In this document: positions 2,177 through 55,571 of the stretch, one piece after another
Numbering within the stretch: the first letter of the stretch is position 1
Layout: the number at the start of each line of letters is the position of its first letter
DNA from: Paracoccaceae bacterium
GTDB taxonomy: Bacteria; Pseudomonadota; Alphaproteobacteria; Rhodobacterales; Rhodobacteraceae
Reading direction: 5' to 3'
DNA: 58,798 bases
Assembly: GCA_026710155.1 (NCBI GenBank)
Contig: JAPORQ010000055.1
Coordinates: forward strand, 1-58,798
Notes under the pieces: model-generated
Databases searched by the model: none
What the model saw: the letters and a program-made list of their open reading frames with translations, nothing else
Told to the model about the DNA's origin: nothing
Made by a program: the position numbers and the translations under genes

Positions 2177-2935
2177 TTAAAACAAATCAGGCCTTATGGT
2201 GGAAATTGAATTCAACCCGCCATCGACATCTATACATTGGCCTGTAACAAATGATGCTTGATCCGAAGCCAGCCACAGGACTAGGTTTGCTATATCCCGA
2301 GGTTTTCCCAATCTTCCCACCGGGTGTCTGGCAATGGCATCTTTCTGGGCATTTTCTGGATTTTTAGCAGTTTCAAATGCTGTTTCGGTCATTTCCGTTC
2401 TTATCCAGCCAGGACAGATTGAATTACAACGGATGTCTGGTCCATGATCAACCGCAATGGCCTTGGTCAAGGAATGGACAAATCCCTTGGAGGCATCATA
2501 AATGGCCAACCCTGGGTCAGCCTTTTTACCGGAAATTGAACCAATATTGATAATTGATCCACCACCTGCACTTTCCATATTTGGGATAAATTCCCGGCAA
2601 ATATTGAATACACCCTTGCAATTGGTACCAATTACCAGATCCCATTCCTCATCAGTAGTATCCACAACCGTCTTTTCCAACTGGATACCTGCATTGTTAA
2701 CAACCAAGGAAACCACCCCAAAATTTGATTCGATATACCTGCAGAGTTCACCGACTTGACATGCCCTTGAGACATCAACTTTTGTCCAAACCAATTCCGA
2801 AGGAAAATCATCCTCTGCTTCATTTCGTCCACAGCAAATTACCAAATAACCATTTTGACTTAATGTTATGGCAATCTCCTTACCTATTCCTCGGCCAGCA
2901 CCTGTAACCAAGGCAATTTTCTTTTGTTGATTCAT
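2177..2935 (-). CDS. short-chain dehydrogenase/reductase (SDR family)
   Basis: A classical SDR oxidoreductase of about 252 residues. The cofactor loop TGAGRGIGKE lies near residue 14 from the chosen start, followed by NNAG in the middle, a catalytic serine in the GSISG region, and the YDASK active-site motif. The C-terminus ends with the common VTGQCIDVDGG signature. I chose the ATG at 2935 (MNQQKKIALVTGAG) over an upstream ATG at 2965 because the glycine motif then falls at the usual distance from the N-terminus. A 17-bp palindrome lies 75 bp upstream and may be its operator. The substrate cannot be inferred. A 3-oxoacyl-reductase-like or sugar dehydrogenase role are both possible. Confidence 0.8.
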   Translation of the reverse strand: MNQQKKIALVTGAGRGIGKEIAITLSQNGYLVICCGRNEAEDDFPSELVWTKVDVSRACQVGELCRYIESNFGVVSLVVNNAGIQLEKTVVDTTDEEWDLVIGTNCKGVFNICREFIPNMESAGGGSIINIGSISGKKADPGLAIYDASKGFVHSLTKAIAVDHGPDIRCNSICPGWIRTEMTETAFETAKNPENAQKDAIARHPVGRLGKPRDIANLVLWLASDQASFVTGQCIDVDGGLNSISTIRPDLF

Positions 2936-3009
2936 TGAATAGCCCAACCCCATTTCAATTCTCAAGCATTCATTGGTCAGGAAACTGGTTCAAGCTTGTA
3001 ACTCCCTCA

Positions 3010-3026
3010 TTACTTACAGTAAGTAA
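3010..3026. promoter_or_regulatory. 17-bp perfect palindrome, candidate operator
   Basis: TTACTTAC, a central A, then GTAAGTAA form a perfect 8+8 inverted repeat about 75 bp upstream of the SDR gene. Such odd palindromes are typical TetR-family operators. It lies just outside the left end of the 3034-3424 element and overlaps its proposed target duplication by two bases. No regulator is assigned. Confidence 0.4.
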
Positions 3027-3033
3027 ATTTTTA

Positions 3034-3058
3034 GGGGCTTATATACATTGGTAACATT
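3034..3058 (+). repeat. left terminal inverted repeat of the 391-bp element
   Basis: GGGG, then C, then the shared 20-mer ending at 3058. It is the inverse of 3400-3424 with one mismatch (C versus A at the fifth base). Confidence 0.7.
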
Positions 3059-3160
3059 GGCTTGCAACAAACTTCTTGACACCATGAAGTTATAAACTTA
3101 TTATTGGTAATGTCTCGTCAGGCCGATGTCTGCGTCCTCGCAGAAATTGACAGGCGGAAT

Positions 3161-3230
3161 TGGTGGGGCTGGTTGTGCACCAGCGAACGGAGTGCGAGTC
3201 GGTTGCGTCTACCAATTTCGCCACAGCCCC
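3161..3230 (-). pseudogene. degenerate tRNA-Leu, internally deleted
   Basis: Read on the minus strand, the segment has an acceptor strand GGGGCTG, a leucine-type D arm (GTGGCGAAATTGGTAGACGC), and a matching 3' acceptor CAGCCCC followed by ACCA. It is only 70 nt long, whereas tRNA-Leu with its long variable arm is normally about 85-88 nt. The anticodon region (CTCGCAC) does not give a leucine anticodon in the expected position, its stem has a C-C mismatch, and no normal T arm with TTCGA is present. I read it as a tRNA-Leu relic that lost the variable and T arms. It lies inside the 3034-3424 element. Confidence 0.5.
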
Positions 3231-3295
3231 AAAATTCCAAGAAACAGATCAAGAAAATTCCAATTAAACTACCAGACCATAATTATCAACCAAGC

Positions 3296-3391
3296 ATGAA
3301 GGAATTGAGGGAAGAGATTCACATACCGGTTTCCCCTGATGAATTGGCTGAATTGGTCGTTAGGGATTATGAAATAGATTATGAGAAGTGA
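3296..3391 (+). CDS. short hypothetical peptide inside the element
   Basis: A 31-residue frame starting MKELREEIHIPVSPDELAE and ending at 3391. The frame is open much further upstream (to 3104), but that part is antisense to the tRNA-like sequence and is unlikely to be protein. The coding-like stretch probably begins somewhere after 3240, with no good start codon and no clear ribosome-binding site. The amphipathic acidic sequence looks like real protein, perhaps the tail of a small antitoxin-like protein, but I do not recognise it. It could be a fragment carried by the element. Confidence 0.3.
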   Translation: MKELREEIHIPVSPDELAELVVRDYEIDYEK

Positions 3392-3750
3392 AAAGGGGTA
3401 ATGTTACCAATGTATATAATCCCCAAATTTATATATCGTTTTGCTGCTCTCCAGATATCCCTTATCCTAGGGCCAAAGTGGATTCTCTTACCTTGTACCT
3501 CAACTCCTGTAGAGGTATCAATAACATCAAGTAATTTGTTCCAAATTTCTTTTTTTGAACTATGAGACAAAATGTTTATGCCATTTTTGCAAATTACTGT
3601 AAAAAACAAAACTGCTTGCTTTGGAAGGAGGTATTGACTCTGAAGCTTCTTGGCTATTACCGCTTTGGATTCGATATATTTGCTTATTTCCTTTTTGGTG
3701 ACCCCTACAAGGGAGGAAATTTCCCCTATGGTAAGATTAGAATCCTCCAT
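3379..3750 (-). CDS. HTH protein, MerR/DUF433-associated type, 3' end altered by the element
   Basis: From the ATG at 3750 the protein has about 123 residues. The N-terminal part (LTIGEISSLVGVTKKEISKYIE) is a MerR/excisionase-like helix-turn-helix of the kind found in front of DUF433 domains in antitoxin-like proteins. The last 15 or so residues are encoded by the target site and by the right end of the 3034-3424 element, so the original C-terminus has been replaced. Skipping the element, the frame would continue for about 15 codons past 3033 and then stop. A purine-rich stretch precedes the chosen start; the longer ATG at 3804 is less likely. It is probably a remnant or truncated regulator. 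Confidence 0.45.
   Translation of the reverse strand: MEDSNLTIGEISSLVGVTKKEISKYIESKAVIAKKLQSQYLLPKQAVLFFTVICKNGINILSHSSKKEIWNKLLDVIDTSTGVEVQGKRIHFGPRIRDIWRAAKRYINLGIIYIGNITPFHFS
3400..3424 (-). repeat. right terminal inverted repeat of the 391-bp element
   Basis: Inverse copy of 3034-3058. The core 20-mer is identical and the outer CCCC mirrors the left GGGG. Confidence 0.7.
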
Positions 3751-4089
3751 TTCTTTCTTCTGGATATTACCAAACGGATAACATAATGATACTGAGTTCC
3801 ACATTGGTCAAGTTCAAAGGGAATCCAGCTTCAAAATACATTTCGCTAGCACCAAGAAAATCACGTTTCAATCATATCCCTTTTTGATTTACCCTACACC
3901 CGACAATTCGTTTATTTTTTTCTTAATGACCGGAATTTTAACGATAAAATATAAGCTAGTATGGTATCAAGAAATCATCGTTGAGTACAAGAAAAATACA
4001 AATATCTCAATCTTCTACTATATGTTTGTACGTGGGAATATTCTTTCAATTAATATACCTACAATAAGGTTTGACGAAATAGTAATGCC
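3751..4089. other. intergenic, AT-rich, no gene seen
   Basis: About 340 bp between the HTH gene and the ATPase gene, which diverge. I see no coding frame with protein-like sequence and no hairpin with a T tail. It should hold the promoters of both genes. Confidence 0.4.
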
Positions 4090-4999: not shown

Positions 5000-5944
5000 A
5001 TGCCTATCGTAATACCTGACAATCTTCCTGCTTTCTCGGTCATGGAGAAAGAGGGTGTACAGGTCATGTCAGAAAAAAAGGCCCTGCGTCAAGATATAAG
5101 GGCATTGGAAATCGGCTTGATCAATCTGATGCCCAACAAGGTTGATACGGAAACCCAATTCATCAGGTTAATTGGTTCAACCCCGCTCCAGATCAATTTT
5201 ACCCTAATTCGAATGACTGATCATGTTTCCAAGTCAACCTCACTGGAATACCTGAATCAATTTTATGTGACCTACGAGGAAATCAAGGATAGGAAATTCG
5301 ACGGGTTGATCATTACCGGCGCTCCCATTGAACATCTGGAATACGAAGAAATCTATTACTGGCAGGAACTCTGTGACGTATTTGATTGGACGCAATCAAA
5401 TGTCCATTCCACCTTTGGTATCTGTTGGGGTGGGATGGCCATGATGTATTATTGGTATAATTTGAAAAAGATCCAGTTTGAACACAAGCTGTTCGGTTGT
5501 TATCCCCAGACCAATCATCAAACAAACTCACCTTTTCTGAGAGGGTTTTCAGATGATATCCACATTCCTGTAAGCCGATGGGCTGGCATGGACCAGAAAG
5601 ATATTGATAAGTCCGAAGGTTTGAAAACCCTGCTGGGTTCCCAGGAAAGCGGTCCTTGTCTCATAGAGGATACCAGGCATCATTCACTTTATATAATGAA
5701 TCATTTCGAATACAGTACGGATACTTTAATGAACGAGTATAAGCGGGACTTGAATGCCGATGGCATAGAAATACAATTGCCCAAATTTTATTTTCCAAAT
5801 GAAAATCCGGCAATGAAACCGATAAACAAATGGCGAAGTAACGGGCATTTGCTATACTCCAACTGGATAAACTATATCTATCAAACCACCGAATACGAGC
5901 TTGCAAAAATCGCAAGCGAAAGGAAAACAGGAATCAAAACCTGA
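5000..5944 (+). CDS. metA: homoserine O-acetyltransferase, MetA family
   Basis: Activates homoserine by O-acylation, the first committed step of methionine synthesis in the cytoplasm. The 314-residue protein has the MetA layout: LMPNKVDTE near the N-terminus, TGAPIE at 106-111, the nucleophile Cys142 in GICWGG, and a catalytic His in MNHFEY near residue 235. Residue 111 is Glu (TGAPIE). In this family Glu111 is known to go with acetyl-CoA and Gly111 (as in E. coli) with succinyl-CoA, so acetyl transfer is predicted. It probably shares a transcript with the upstream ATPase. I see no SAM riboswitch in front of the pair. Family confidence is high; acyl specificity is inferred from one residue. 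Confidence 0.92.
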   Translation: MPIVIPDNLPAFSVMEKEGVQVMSEKKALRQDIRALEIGLINLMPNKVDTETQFIRLIGSTPLQINFTLIRMTDHVSKSTSLEYLNQFYVTYEEIKDRKFDGLIITGAPIEHLEYEEIYYWQELCDVFDWTQSNVHSTFGICWGGMAMMYYWYNLKKIQFEHKLFGCYPQTNHQTNSPFLRGFSDDIHIPVSRWAGMDQKDIDKSEGLKTLLGSQESGPCLIEDTRHHSLYIMNHFEYSTDTLMNEYKRDLNADGIEIQLPKFYFPNENPAMKPINKWRSNGHLLYSNWINYIYQTTEYELAKIASERKTGIKT

Positions 5945-7298: not shown

Positions 7299-8513
7299 TC
7301 ATTTCAACTCATCTACAAAATCAAACAATTGATTTATGACCCAGTTGGTGGTTCGCATCAATCGATCATCCTCCCAGTATTTACCAATTAACAACAATCC
7401 TAAAGGATCATCATTCTCATCCTTCAAGACAGGTATTGTTATCATTGGAAGGCCACAAATTTCTGCCACCTTGGCAATGGGTGATATAAAACCATTACCA
7501 TTCATATCCCCTTGTGAAGCAGGCAGGATCAATGCATCATAATCCAAAAAGAACCTCTCGAAATATTTTCCAAGATGAAGAAACATCTCCTCGAACTCTG
7601 TGAGTGTTTGTTCTTTCATAATTTTTTTGTCACCCGGTCGAAAAATTTTCTCATACAAAGATTTTCTGACATGACAGTTGTCGGGATTATCCTTTAATTC
7701 GGTTTCGAACTTGCATACCATTTCGGAAAAATCAGGTAACTCGACTTTATCCTTGGTTGTGTCCAATTCATCAATCAACAAATTGAAATCCTTGACATAA
7801 TCCAATCGAATGCCATTCAGGTCATAAGTGCATAAGGCAGGTGATACCGGCGGATCATCTTTAAATGTTTTCACCAGATTCGGTGGTGGATAAGGTAGGC
7901 TCAGGATATCCCTTGAGTCATAATACGAAACCAAATCACCGAAATAGGCAATGTCTTCAATGAAGTTTGCAAGCAAACCTACCCTGTCGAGTGAATTGAG
8001 ATCATCAGTCAATCCATACCTTGGAACGATACCAAACGAAGGCACATAACCGAACAGACCAAGTTCTGATGAGGTCAAACAAAAATCATGCCCTCTTCCG
8101 ACACCCAGACCAAGGCTTGGCCTACTTTCCAATATCGCCTGCCCGATGGATGAGATTAAAATATTTCTTGAAGCATCTGTGGCGCCAGAATCGGCTTTTA
8201 TCTTGTCTATATTCAGTATGGAAGACAAGGCCCCATGGGTATTCAGTAGATCCTCTACCGAGGAATTACCCGTAAAACCTTCGGGTTTGTTCAAAGCCAG
8301 GGCTACAGGAATACCATGTAAATTACCCAAGGGCTTGCCATGCAATGTCATGAGGTCAAGCACTTTGGCACGATCCCTGTCAACAATGAATTCATCTTCA
8401 CTTGAACTTTCCAATAGACCAGCAAGCAATCGTTCCGAAGTCGTATGCCTATCCTTGATACCGGAAAGCAATGTGGCAACTGTTAGATATTTACTTACTT
8501 CGTGGTCGTCCAT
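7299..8513 (-). CDS. amidase-signature-fold protein lacking the catalytic residues
   Basis: A 404-residue protein with the global pattern of amidase-signature enzymes: LHGIPVAL (residues 65-72) corresponds to the usual HGIPVAIKDN, LFGYVPSFGIVPRYG to the GLVGLKPT segment, and DALILPAS plus GLPMITIPV to the C-terminal part. The catalytic Lys that should follow HGIPVAI is absent (Ala73), and the GGSSGG serine stretch is replaced by a sequence without that pattern (about residues 134-150). An active Ser-cisSer-Lys triad is therefore not visible. It begins 5 bp after dctM in the TRAP operon. Inference: a pseudoenzyme, perhaps a binding or regulatory partner of the transported compound. A shifted active site cannot be excluded. 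Confidence 0.65.
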   Translation of the reverse strand: MDDHEVSKYLTVATLLSGIKDRHTTSERLLAGLLESSSEDEFIVDRDRAKVLDLMTLHGKPLGNLHGIPVALALNKPEGFTGNSSVEDLLNTHGALSSILNIDKIKADSGATDASRNILISSIGQAILESRPSLGLGVGRGHDFCLTSSELGLFGYVPSFGIVPRYGLTDDLNSLDRVGLLANFIEDIAYFGDLVSYYDSRDILSLPYPPPNLVKTFKDDPPVSPALCTYDLNGIRLDYVKDFNLLIDELDTTKDKVELPDFSEMVCKFETELKDNPDNCHVRKSLYEKIFRPGDKKIMKEQTLTEFEEMFLHLGKYFERFFLDYDALILPASQGDMNGNGFISPIAKVAEICGLPMITIPVLKDENDDPLGLLLIGKYWEDDRLMRTTNWVINQLFDFVDELK

Positions 8514-55134: not shown

Positions 55135-55183
55135 AGGCAGGGTTCAACTGTTGTAGAATTGTATCATTAAATCCAAGGTGATA

Positions 55184-55209
55184 TTGACAATTTGATCAAC
55201 AAGTATAAT
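55184..55209 (+). promoter_or_regulatory. candidate promoter of ssrA
   Basis: TTGACA (55184-55189) and TATAAT (55204-55209) are both consensus hexamers, but the spacer is 14 bp, short of the usual 16-18. It lies at the expected distance before the tmRNA. Confidence 0.5.
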
Positions 55210-55215
55210 TCTCTG

Positions 55216-55515
55216 TTTGTTCCTTTTGGAACTATGGCGATAAACGTGCTCGAAATAAACGGATCGGACCCGGGGGCGGTACCCGGCGGCTCCACCATAG
55301 ATGATAGGGGGCCGAAATAGGATCGACGAACGCGTAAAGGGGTTAACTTTTGCCCGGTGGGGTACCGCTGTTATCGGTCCAAACTGCACAATTGCCAATG
55401 ACAATCGTGCTCCGGTCGCATTAGCTGCGTAAGCGGTAAAGTGCTCGGATCTGACTCTGGGATTCAATAGCACAGTCCCAGCGGGGTTTGGCAGGTACCT
55501 GGCAACAGAAACCTG
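55216..55515 (+). ncRNA. ssrA: circularly permuted (two-piece) tmRNA
   Basis: Rescues stalled ribosomes and tags the nascent protein. The 3' acceptor piece comes first: a T arm with CCGGG/CCCGG around GGCGGTA, then CGGCTCC-ACCA ending at 55297. Ten bases later GGGGCCGAAATAGGATCGAC begins the coding piece (55308). GGGGCCG pairs with CGGCTCC including a G3-U70 wobble, the alanine identity element. The tag frame at 55394-55432 reads ANDNRAPVALAA and ends in TAA. This gene order is typical of alphaproteobacteria. The 3' end is approximate, placed near a TGGCAGGT/ACCTGCCA hairpin. sspB follows. Confidence 0.9.
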
Positions 55516-55571
55516 CCACTTAATATTGTCATCTCGCCATCCAACTTGGTAAAACGGAAACGATAATTGCC

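Follow-up and report, generated by a model that had tools for sequence, protein, structure and literature searches.

An apparent IS1595-family derivative that carries a tRNA-Leu-derived module and no transposase in a Paracoccaceae bacterium

Structured RNAs that lie opposite the leader of the gene they control, such as RNA-OUT of IS10 and RNA I of ColE1, have their specificity in exposed loops. The RNA considered here differs in that it would be derived from a tRNA gene and would end 99 nt short of the start codon. Allo-tRNAs (Mukai et al. 2017, as summarized in the available part of the review PMC7609411) are serine-type tRNAs with many non-serine anticodons; their acceptor branches are of the 8/4 or 9/3 type and they bear the identity elements for serine, whereas the molecules described here have a 7/5 branch and a leucine-type body. 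The same part of that review reports a transposon-linked allo-tRNA pseudogene, which is the nearest precedent for our locus, and suggests that odd tRNAs travel with transposable elements. Nematode nev-tRNAs have a Leu-like variable arm and a glycine or isoleucine anticodon, and are charged with leucine in vitro, according to the accessible sections of PMC4300185. They share with the bacterial copies a leucine-type body with a foreign anticodon, the bacterial copies being known by body features (A73, a 24-26-nt variable region) only; however, nev-tRNAs are eukaryotic and are not described as transposon cargo in those sections. In Alphaproteobacteria, the tRNA-Sec gene can be nested in or overlap selB, and an effect on selB expression has been proposed (PMC8124441, in the portion available). 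There too a tRNA sequence overlaps another gene, but it overlaps a coding sequence and not a transposase leader, and the same portion does not describe it as mobile. For the IS1595 family, one member is stated to make A/T-rich 8-bp duplications in the part of PMC12561309 at hand. Neither cargo of the tRNA-Leu type in IS1595 elements nor a transposase regulator derived from a tRNA turned up in a literature search that covered few subscription papers.

The window, meaning the whole stretch of DNA analyzed here (58,798 nucleotides), is contig C17 of a 3.13 Mb genome assembled into 83 contigs. An earlier note had described a 391-bp element in it with near-perfect inverted ends, no transposase and a tRNA-Leu relic as cargo, and all three points hold. 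The two 25-bp arms agree at 24 of 25 bases (a repeat finder reports 28 nt, 93% complementary), and the 20-mer TTATATACATTGGTAACATT that they have in common occurs twice, once on each strand; 100 shuffles gave no match to it, even when three mismatches were allowed. The open reading frame list of the 391-bp segment contains no transposase, and the class-II, leucine-type body of the relic is confirmed, though its anticodon is CGC (Ala). The features of the element and its flanks are as follows.

2970-3029, minus strand: tail of a DUF5615/PIN-like gene, residues 116-134 and stop, by comparison with relative G008
3025-3033, no strand: left 9-mer AAATTTTTA, native, where the DUF5615-type gene ends; no target duplication
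3034-3058, plus strand: left terminal inverted repeat GGGGCTTATATACATTGGTAACATT, 20/25 identical to the corresponding end of the IS1595 element on contig C65
3076-3104, plus strand: sigma-70-like candidate promoter TTGACA-17-TATTAT, matching the consensus at 11/12 bases and directed into the strand antisense to the relic
3153-3166, plus strand: 5' arm of the predicted 14-bp closing helix of the leader strand
3161-3230, minus strand (3230 to 3161): tRNA-Leu-type relic, 70 nt, with acceptor, D-arm, anticodon arm and 3' CCA kept
3209-3222, plus strand: 3' arm of the closing helix, complement of the relic's D-arm
3239-3391, plus strand: small ORF module KKQIKKIPIKL...DYEIDYEK, stop at 3389-3391; the ATG of some relatives is absent here
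3379-3804, minus strand: truncated HTH+DUF433-type gene, with its last 14 codons and stop inside the element
3400-3424, minus strand: right terminal inverted repeat GGGGATTATATACATTGGTAACATT, 20/25 identical to the other C65 end
3425-3433, no strand: right 9-mer AAATTTATA, native, within the DUF433-type gene; not a target duplication

The search for further copies of the ends that had been proposed for this genome places them among IS1595 elements. Related ends bound elements on contigs C65 and C21 whose transposases match both IS1595 domains, PF12762 and PF12760. The end motif occurs at 9 places in the genome at up to two mismatches, compared with 1 for a reversed control, and PF12762 has 16 matches in the genome, some of which are parts of one gene. 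Two other mini-elements with related ends also exist in this genome (181 bp on C70 and 184 bp on C1), both with exact 8-bp duplications and neither with space for a transposase. In the loci examined, eight other elements with both ends were found by a strict end pattern (a ninth, on C2 of G005, runs to the contig edge and was not scored), and in the best register an exact 8-bp duplication flanks five of them, a 7/8 match flanks two, and one, on C42 of G005, has none. The likeness to the IS1595 family includes ends that start with GGG, related elements that carry DDE_Tnp_IS1595 and zinc-ribbon transposases as well as passenger genes, and duplications of 8 bp that are mostly A/T-rich. In contrast, the window copy has neither transposase nor duplication, and it carries, together with some of its relatives, the tRNA-derived RNA module. 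On this evidence the 391-bp element is most simply classed as a non-autonomous derivative of an IS1595-family transposon. Because each of its ends is 20/25 identical to a window end, the C65 element encodes the best candidate mover seen. The passengers on C65 (L085 1760-5244) are restriction-modification genes for an N6/N4 methyltransferase and a CfrBI-like endonuclease, and the passenger on C21 (L093 1146-4174) is a methyltransferase with HNH domains. A small ORF module of the kind found in the window is sited just within one end of several related elements, and that of the window (3239-3391) is similar to the N-terminal part of a DNA methyltransferase on contig C280 of G003 (L051 136-1641). 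A palindrome, TTTGTTACT...AGTAACAAA, is present in two transposase promoters that are without the tRNA module (L085 about 5170-5210, L102 about 1315-1355); it has GTAAC in common with the terminal repeats, and self-regulation is possible.

The locus had also been read as a MITE-like, non-autonomous element. The non-autonomous part of that reading stands, since the element is short (391 bp), has terminal repeats that are related to those of transposase-bearing elements, and lacks a transposase ORF. The multi-copy part does not: among the candidates scored in 41 genomes (in this genome, 16 of 60 first-look candidates), the whole element gave one match over both ends, which is the window itself. 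It looks like a one-off derivative rather than a member of a multi-copy MITE family.

A 9-bp target duplication had been proposed from the 9-mers AAATTTTTA and AAATTTATA, which do agree at 8 of 9 letters. Most of the family makes duplications of 8 bp; at that length the flanks of the window element agree at no more than 5/8 positions, whereas at least 7/8 agree in seven of the eight other paired elements. Comparison with relatives decides the matter. At locus L347 of G008, the left flank aligns at 52-283 (89%) and the right flank at 836-1208 (91%), with 552 bp between them that hold the end of the HTH+DUF433 gene and most of the DUF5615/PIN-like gene. The gene pair is whole in G008 and the element is absent, so the two 9-mers belong to native sites 552 bp apart, a true target duplication is ruled out, and the likeness of the 9-mers comes down to A/T-rich DNA. 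Residues 1-112 of the first gene (HTH+DUF433, in stop-to-stop frame numbering) remain to the right of the window element, which sits across a 552-bp deletion of the DUF433/DUF5615 gene pair and therefore has no true target duplication. In the comparison with relatives that had been proposed, the element is missing at this site in G008, G006 and G005, the latter two having neither gene pair nor element, with 87 and 253 bp, respectively, between matching flanks. The contig of G001 stops short of the site, and the left flank was unaligned in G003, G002, G004 and G007. G008 is the only relative with the whole gene pair, and on account of its complete DUF433 domain we regard its arrangement as the ancestral one. 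The comparison with an empty site is a caution, in that an A/T-rich 8/9 flank match resembled a target duplication and was none.

The relic within the element has lost most of its variable arm and T-arm, so its cloverleaf is incomplete and it does not qualify as a functional tRNA. Its anticodon loop is CUCGCAC, with the anticodon CGC set in a class-II, leucine-type body. Neither ARAGORN nor Rfam at the gathering level calls it; a covariance model built from five intact relatives scores it at 62.4 bits, which is within the range of ordinary tRNA-Leu genes. The module is present as seven copies in two genomes of the genus, this one and G003, the assembly of the latter being fragmented (420 contigs, 6% contamination). 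All six relatives of the relic have non-leucine anticodons: in this genome, C59 has GCC (Gly) and C26 has CGC (Ala), with a duplication in its anticodon arm, and in G003, C96 has ACC (Gly), C322 has CGC (Ala), and C40 and C45 have GTC (Asp). The C40 and C45 copies look like one duplicated segment, their flanks also being common, and G003 is therefore counted as three lineages; C59 and the window copy, which have the same tRNA/small ORF junction, look like sister copies. C59 passes Rfam RF00005 (46.7 bits against 29), and ARAGORN calls it and the four G003 copies. Parsing of C59, C96, C322 and C40 gives full arms, A73, CCA and a variable region of 24-26 nt; C45 can be aligned to these four. The acceptor branch is 7/5, with 6/7 pairs in C59 and 7/7 in C96, C322 and C40, and is not the 8/4 or 9/3 branch of allo-tRNAs. 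By these features the module is evidently derived from a class-II tRNA-Leu. The C26 copy (L092 7460-7581) lies near a transposon end at 7633 that is oriented opposite to the ends of the other copies.

The arrangement of the module is best seen on C96 of G003. Here the tRNA lies between paired ends with 7/8 flanks and on the strand opposite the DNA that precedes an IS1595 transposase gene, with a promoter-like site at 2804-2832 (plus strand of L087), the tRNA at 2995-2898 (minus) and the transposase from 3095 (plus). There are 99 nt from the end of the tRNA to the transposase start codon, so the tRNA leaves the ribosome site uncovered. The transposase gene contains an in-frame stop, and a weak partial match to a DNA methyltransferase follows behind it. 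A promoter-like site located between the left end and the tRNA, and pointing into the tRNA, is found in all five copies scanned, scoring 11/12 in the window and 10/12 in each of C59, C96, C322 and C40; the scan, which left out C45 and C26, matched consensus only, and shuffled regions average 0.5 to 1.4 sites. C96 and C322 have a second promoter-like site (11/12) between the tRNA and the transposase side, in C96 at 3022-3051 (plus) of L087, and the transposase mRNA may therefore lack the tRNA complement. No terminator-like site was found by a scan of the window copy, C59, C96, C322 and C40. Between the tRNA and the transposase, at about 3000-3030 of L087, the sequence ATTATATACTCATTAAC resembles a further terminal repeat on the inner side, which would fit addition of the tRNA unit outside an older left end; on its opposite strand there is a TATAAT shortly ahead of the tRNA, with no -35 partner listed.

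Folding was predicted for both strands. The 3' trailer of the tRNA is complementary to its own D-arm, such that a 14-bp helix can close the leader strand in 7/7 copies. The window leader still forms this helix in a full-range fold; folds of the window copy that cut the helix give z-scores of -0.49 and -1.21. Each of the 10 non-Watson-Crick cells of the closing helix is a G.U pair in the leader and would be A.C in the tRNA. These cells reflect perhaps 4 to 6 independent changes, so the strand argument is a moderate one. The helix also includes a double change, GGCG/CGCC versus GGUG/CACC. Over the full structures, wobbles favor each strand's own fold (leader 15 G.U to 2 A.C; cloverleaf 11 to 4). 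Leader-strand z-scores are -5.06 (C59), -5.01 (C96) and -4.90 (C40), and the corresponding tRNA strands score -4.30, -2.89 and -2.02; the values for an ordinary tRNA-Leu of the genus are -2.05 and, on the complementary strand, -2.77.

Variation among the copies is concentrated in two loops, at least within G003. In C96, C322 and C40, 4/7 positions of the anticodon loop and 3/7 of the variable-arm loop vary, that is 7/14 loop positions compared with 7/174 elsewhere (Fisher p = 6e-6), whereas the rest of the tRNA varies at 1/84 positions, with 0/11 in the D-loop and 0/7 in the T-loop. With C45 included the figures are 7/14 and 13/175 (p = 1e-4), and with the distant C59 included they are 10/14 and 68/181 (p = 0.02), the anticodon loop alone giving p = 0.44. 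Between the window and C59, 4/7 positions differ, compared with 5/63 other aligned tRNA positions. U33, C36 and A37 are constant in all seven copies. The T-loop is invariant in five copies, with one change in C26, and because the leader structure alone would not need it, this suggests a tRNA-like fold on the minus strand.

The reading that we prefer, at a probability of about 0.45, is that of a decayed IS1595 derivative with a tRNA-derived RNA module whose function would be control of transposase expression. An IS1595-family transposon would have lost its transposase while keeping both terminal repeats, the left-end promoter-like site and leader, the RNA module and the terminal small ORF, and an IS1595 transposase such as that of C65 could have mobilized it in trans; the element now lies across the deletion of the gene pair. 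For the window copy, past mobility in trans is inferred from the ends and from the relatives without the element, since only a single copy of the 391-bp element turned up and no target duplication flanks it. With regard to the module, the transcript from the left-end promoter-like site would be an exact complement of the tRNA, continuing in C96 into the transposase gene, and a stable tRNA-shaped RNA might use its exposed loops, those of the anticodon and the variable arm, to pair with the structured leader that is complementary to it. We favor transposase control because antisense placement, retention of the closing helix and variability of the tips would all follow from it. Its weak points are the second promoter-like site and the 99-nt gap to the start codon. 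The more specific proposal, that a class-II tRNA-Leu gene has turned into an antisense RNA against an IS1595 transposase leader, with elbow and stems fixed and loops diversifying as recognition tips so that co-resident copies avoid cross-silencing, is rather unlikely. The window copy itself probably does nothing specific now, given that most of its T-arm is gone and it has no transposase.

Several observations speak against this reading. The better of the two promoter-like sites in C96 and C322 is the one downstream of the tRNA; the tRNA ends short of the start codon; the scan gave no terminator-like site; the complement of an ordinary tRNA-Leu likewise folds better than shuffles; the contrast between loops and the rest weakens once C59 is added; and only two genomes, one of them in a fragmented assembly, carry the family. 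A working passenger tRNA, of which the window would be a dead relic, could account for the sequences as well: leucyl-tRNA synthetase would charge it by its body (A73, long variable arm), and with its foreign anticodon such a tRNA would place missense leucine at Ala, Gly or Asp codons, an outcome at one time expected of nematode nev-tRNAs too. The Rfam score of C59, the ARAGORN calls, the full arms with A73 and CCA in the four parsed copies, and the T-loop and D-loop invariant in five copies beside a variable anticodon loop are all in keeping with this, as is the occurrence elsewhere of Leu-type tRNAs with non-Leu anticodons and, in the sections of PMC4300185 noted above, the leucine charging of nev-tRNAs in vitro. 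However, the gene lies antisense to a promoter-like site, its 3' trailer complements its own D-arm, and in the 5 copies folded the precursor is predicted to prefer another structure over the cloverleaf. There is in addition an A.C mismatch in each of C40 and C45, placed in the D-stem by our reading, and a U1.U72 mismatch in C59; mistranslation should also be costly, and the proteome study of nev-tRNAs, as given in the accessible sections of PMC4300185, detected none. We regard a missense tRNA as unlikely, yet as a rival to be taken seriously.

Chance capture of a tRNA-Leu gene in the left end of one transposon lineage, followed by drift with unconstrained loops and no function on either strand, is also rather unlikely in our estimation. 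It would fit the visible breakage of 2/3 copies in this genome (the deletion in the window; the duplication and mismatches in C26) and a family confined to one genus within the searches made. It sits poorly with three near-identical G003 copies that vary mainly in two loops while T-loop and D-loop stay constant, and with a closing helix that remains possible in every copy and includes a double change. That the inverted repeat is a host regulatory or structural repeat and not a transposon end is very improbable: a single copy of the whole element and the missing target duplication would agree with it, but ends of the related kind enclose transposases and also flank mini-elements that have 8-bp duplications, and the sequence is absent at this place in three relatives. 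If either functional reading is true, whether transposase control or a working tRNA, a bacterial transposon lineage carries leucine-type tRNAs with varying anticodons, which would mean either that bacteria have missense tRNAs of natural origin or that the tRNA fold has been put to new use in antisense control. For the idea that transposable elements carry odd tRNAs along, as worded in the available part of PMC7609411, the locus family provides a concrete example, in which the ends are paired, the flanking duplication is near-perfect and the copies are several.

Wider searches place the module family in one genus, none being seen outside it in the class-genome pattern search, the plasmid and phage records, or the covariance loci inspected. 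The pattern search of 385 genomes of the class, which is blind to the shortened window copy and did not have G003 in its list, matched only this genome, twice. A phage or plasmid home for the module was rejected, with 0 matches in plasmid/phage records; two IMG/VR matches to the tRNA 3' end and trailer have no ARAGORN-called tRNA and look like chance. The covariance model applied to 394 genomes of the family (two of this genus) gave matches in at least 169 genomes, and among the covariance matches listed, 30 loci were inspected, comprising C59, 27 ordinary tRNA-Leu genes and two others, L354 (Leu-like with Gly ACC) and L374 (Val AAC by ARAGORN). Pattern scans for Leu-type D-arms with non-Leu anticodons returned at least 80 loci in each of two scans; many of these look like group I introns or decayed tRNAs, and an arm parser dropped those without fitting arms.

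Several loci met in these searches are of separate interest. In another genus of the family, the Leu-like tRNA with Gly ACC at L354 1061-1146 has a tRNA-like sequence directly before it by eye, which ARAGORN does not call. G004 has a Leu-type tRNA with the Ala anticodon CGC (L091 400-497), and the same contig has a DNA methyltransferase as well as a gene pair of the AbiE type. In Gammaproteobacteria, Leu-type tRNAs with 29-30-nt variable regions and the anticodons CGC, GGC and GGA are located at L138 1464, L167 452 and 712 (in tandem) and L127 2873, with ARAGORN calling only that of L138. The ORF upstream of the L167 tRNAs is one that we take to be comEA-like, and the DNA upstream at L138 resembles that of L167 by eye. 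Finally, the window has at 55180-55520 a permuted alphaproteobacterial tmRNA of the ordinary type.
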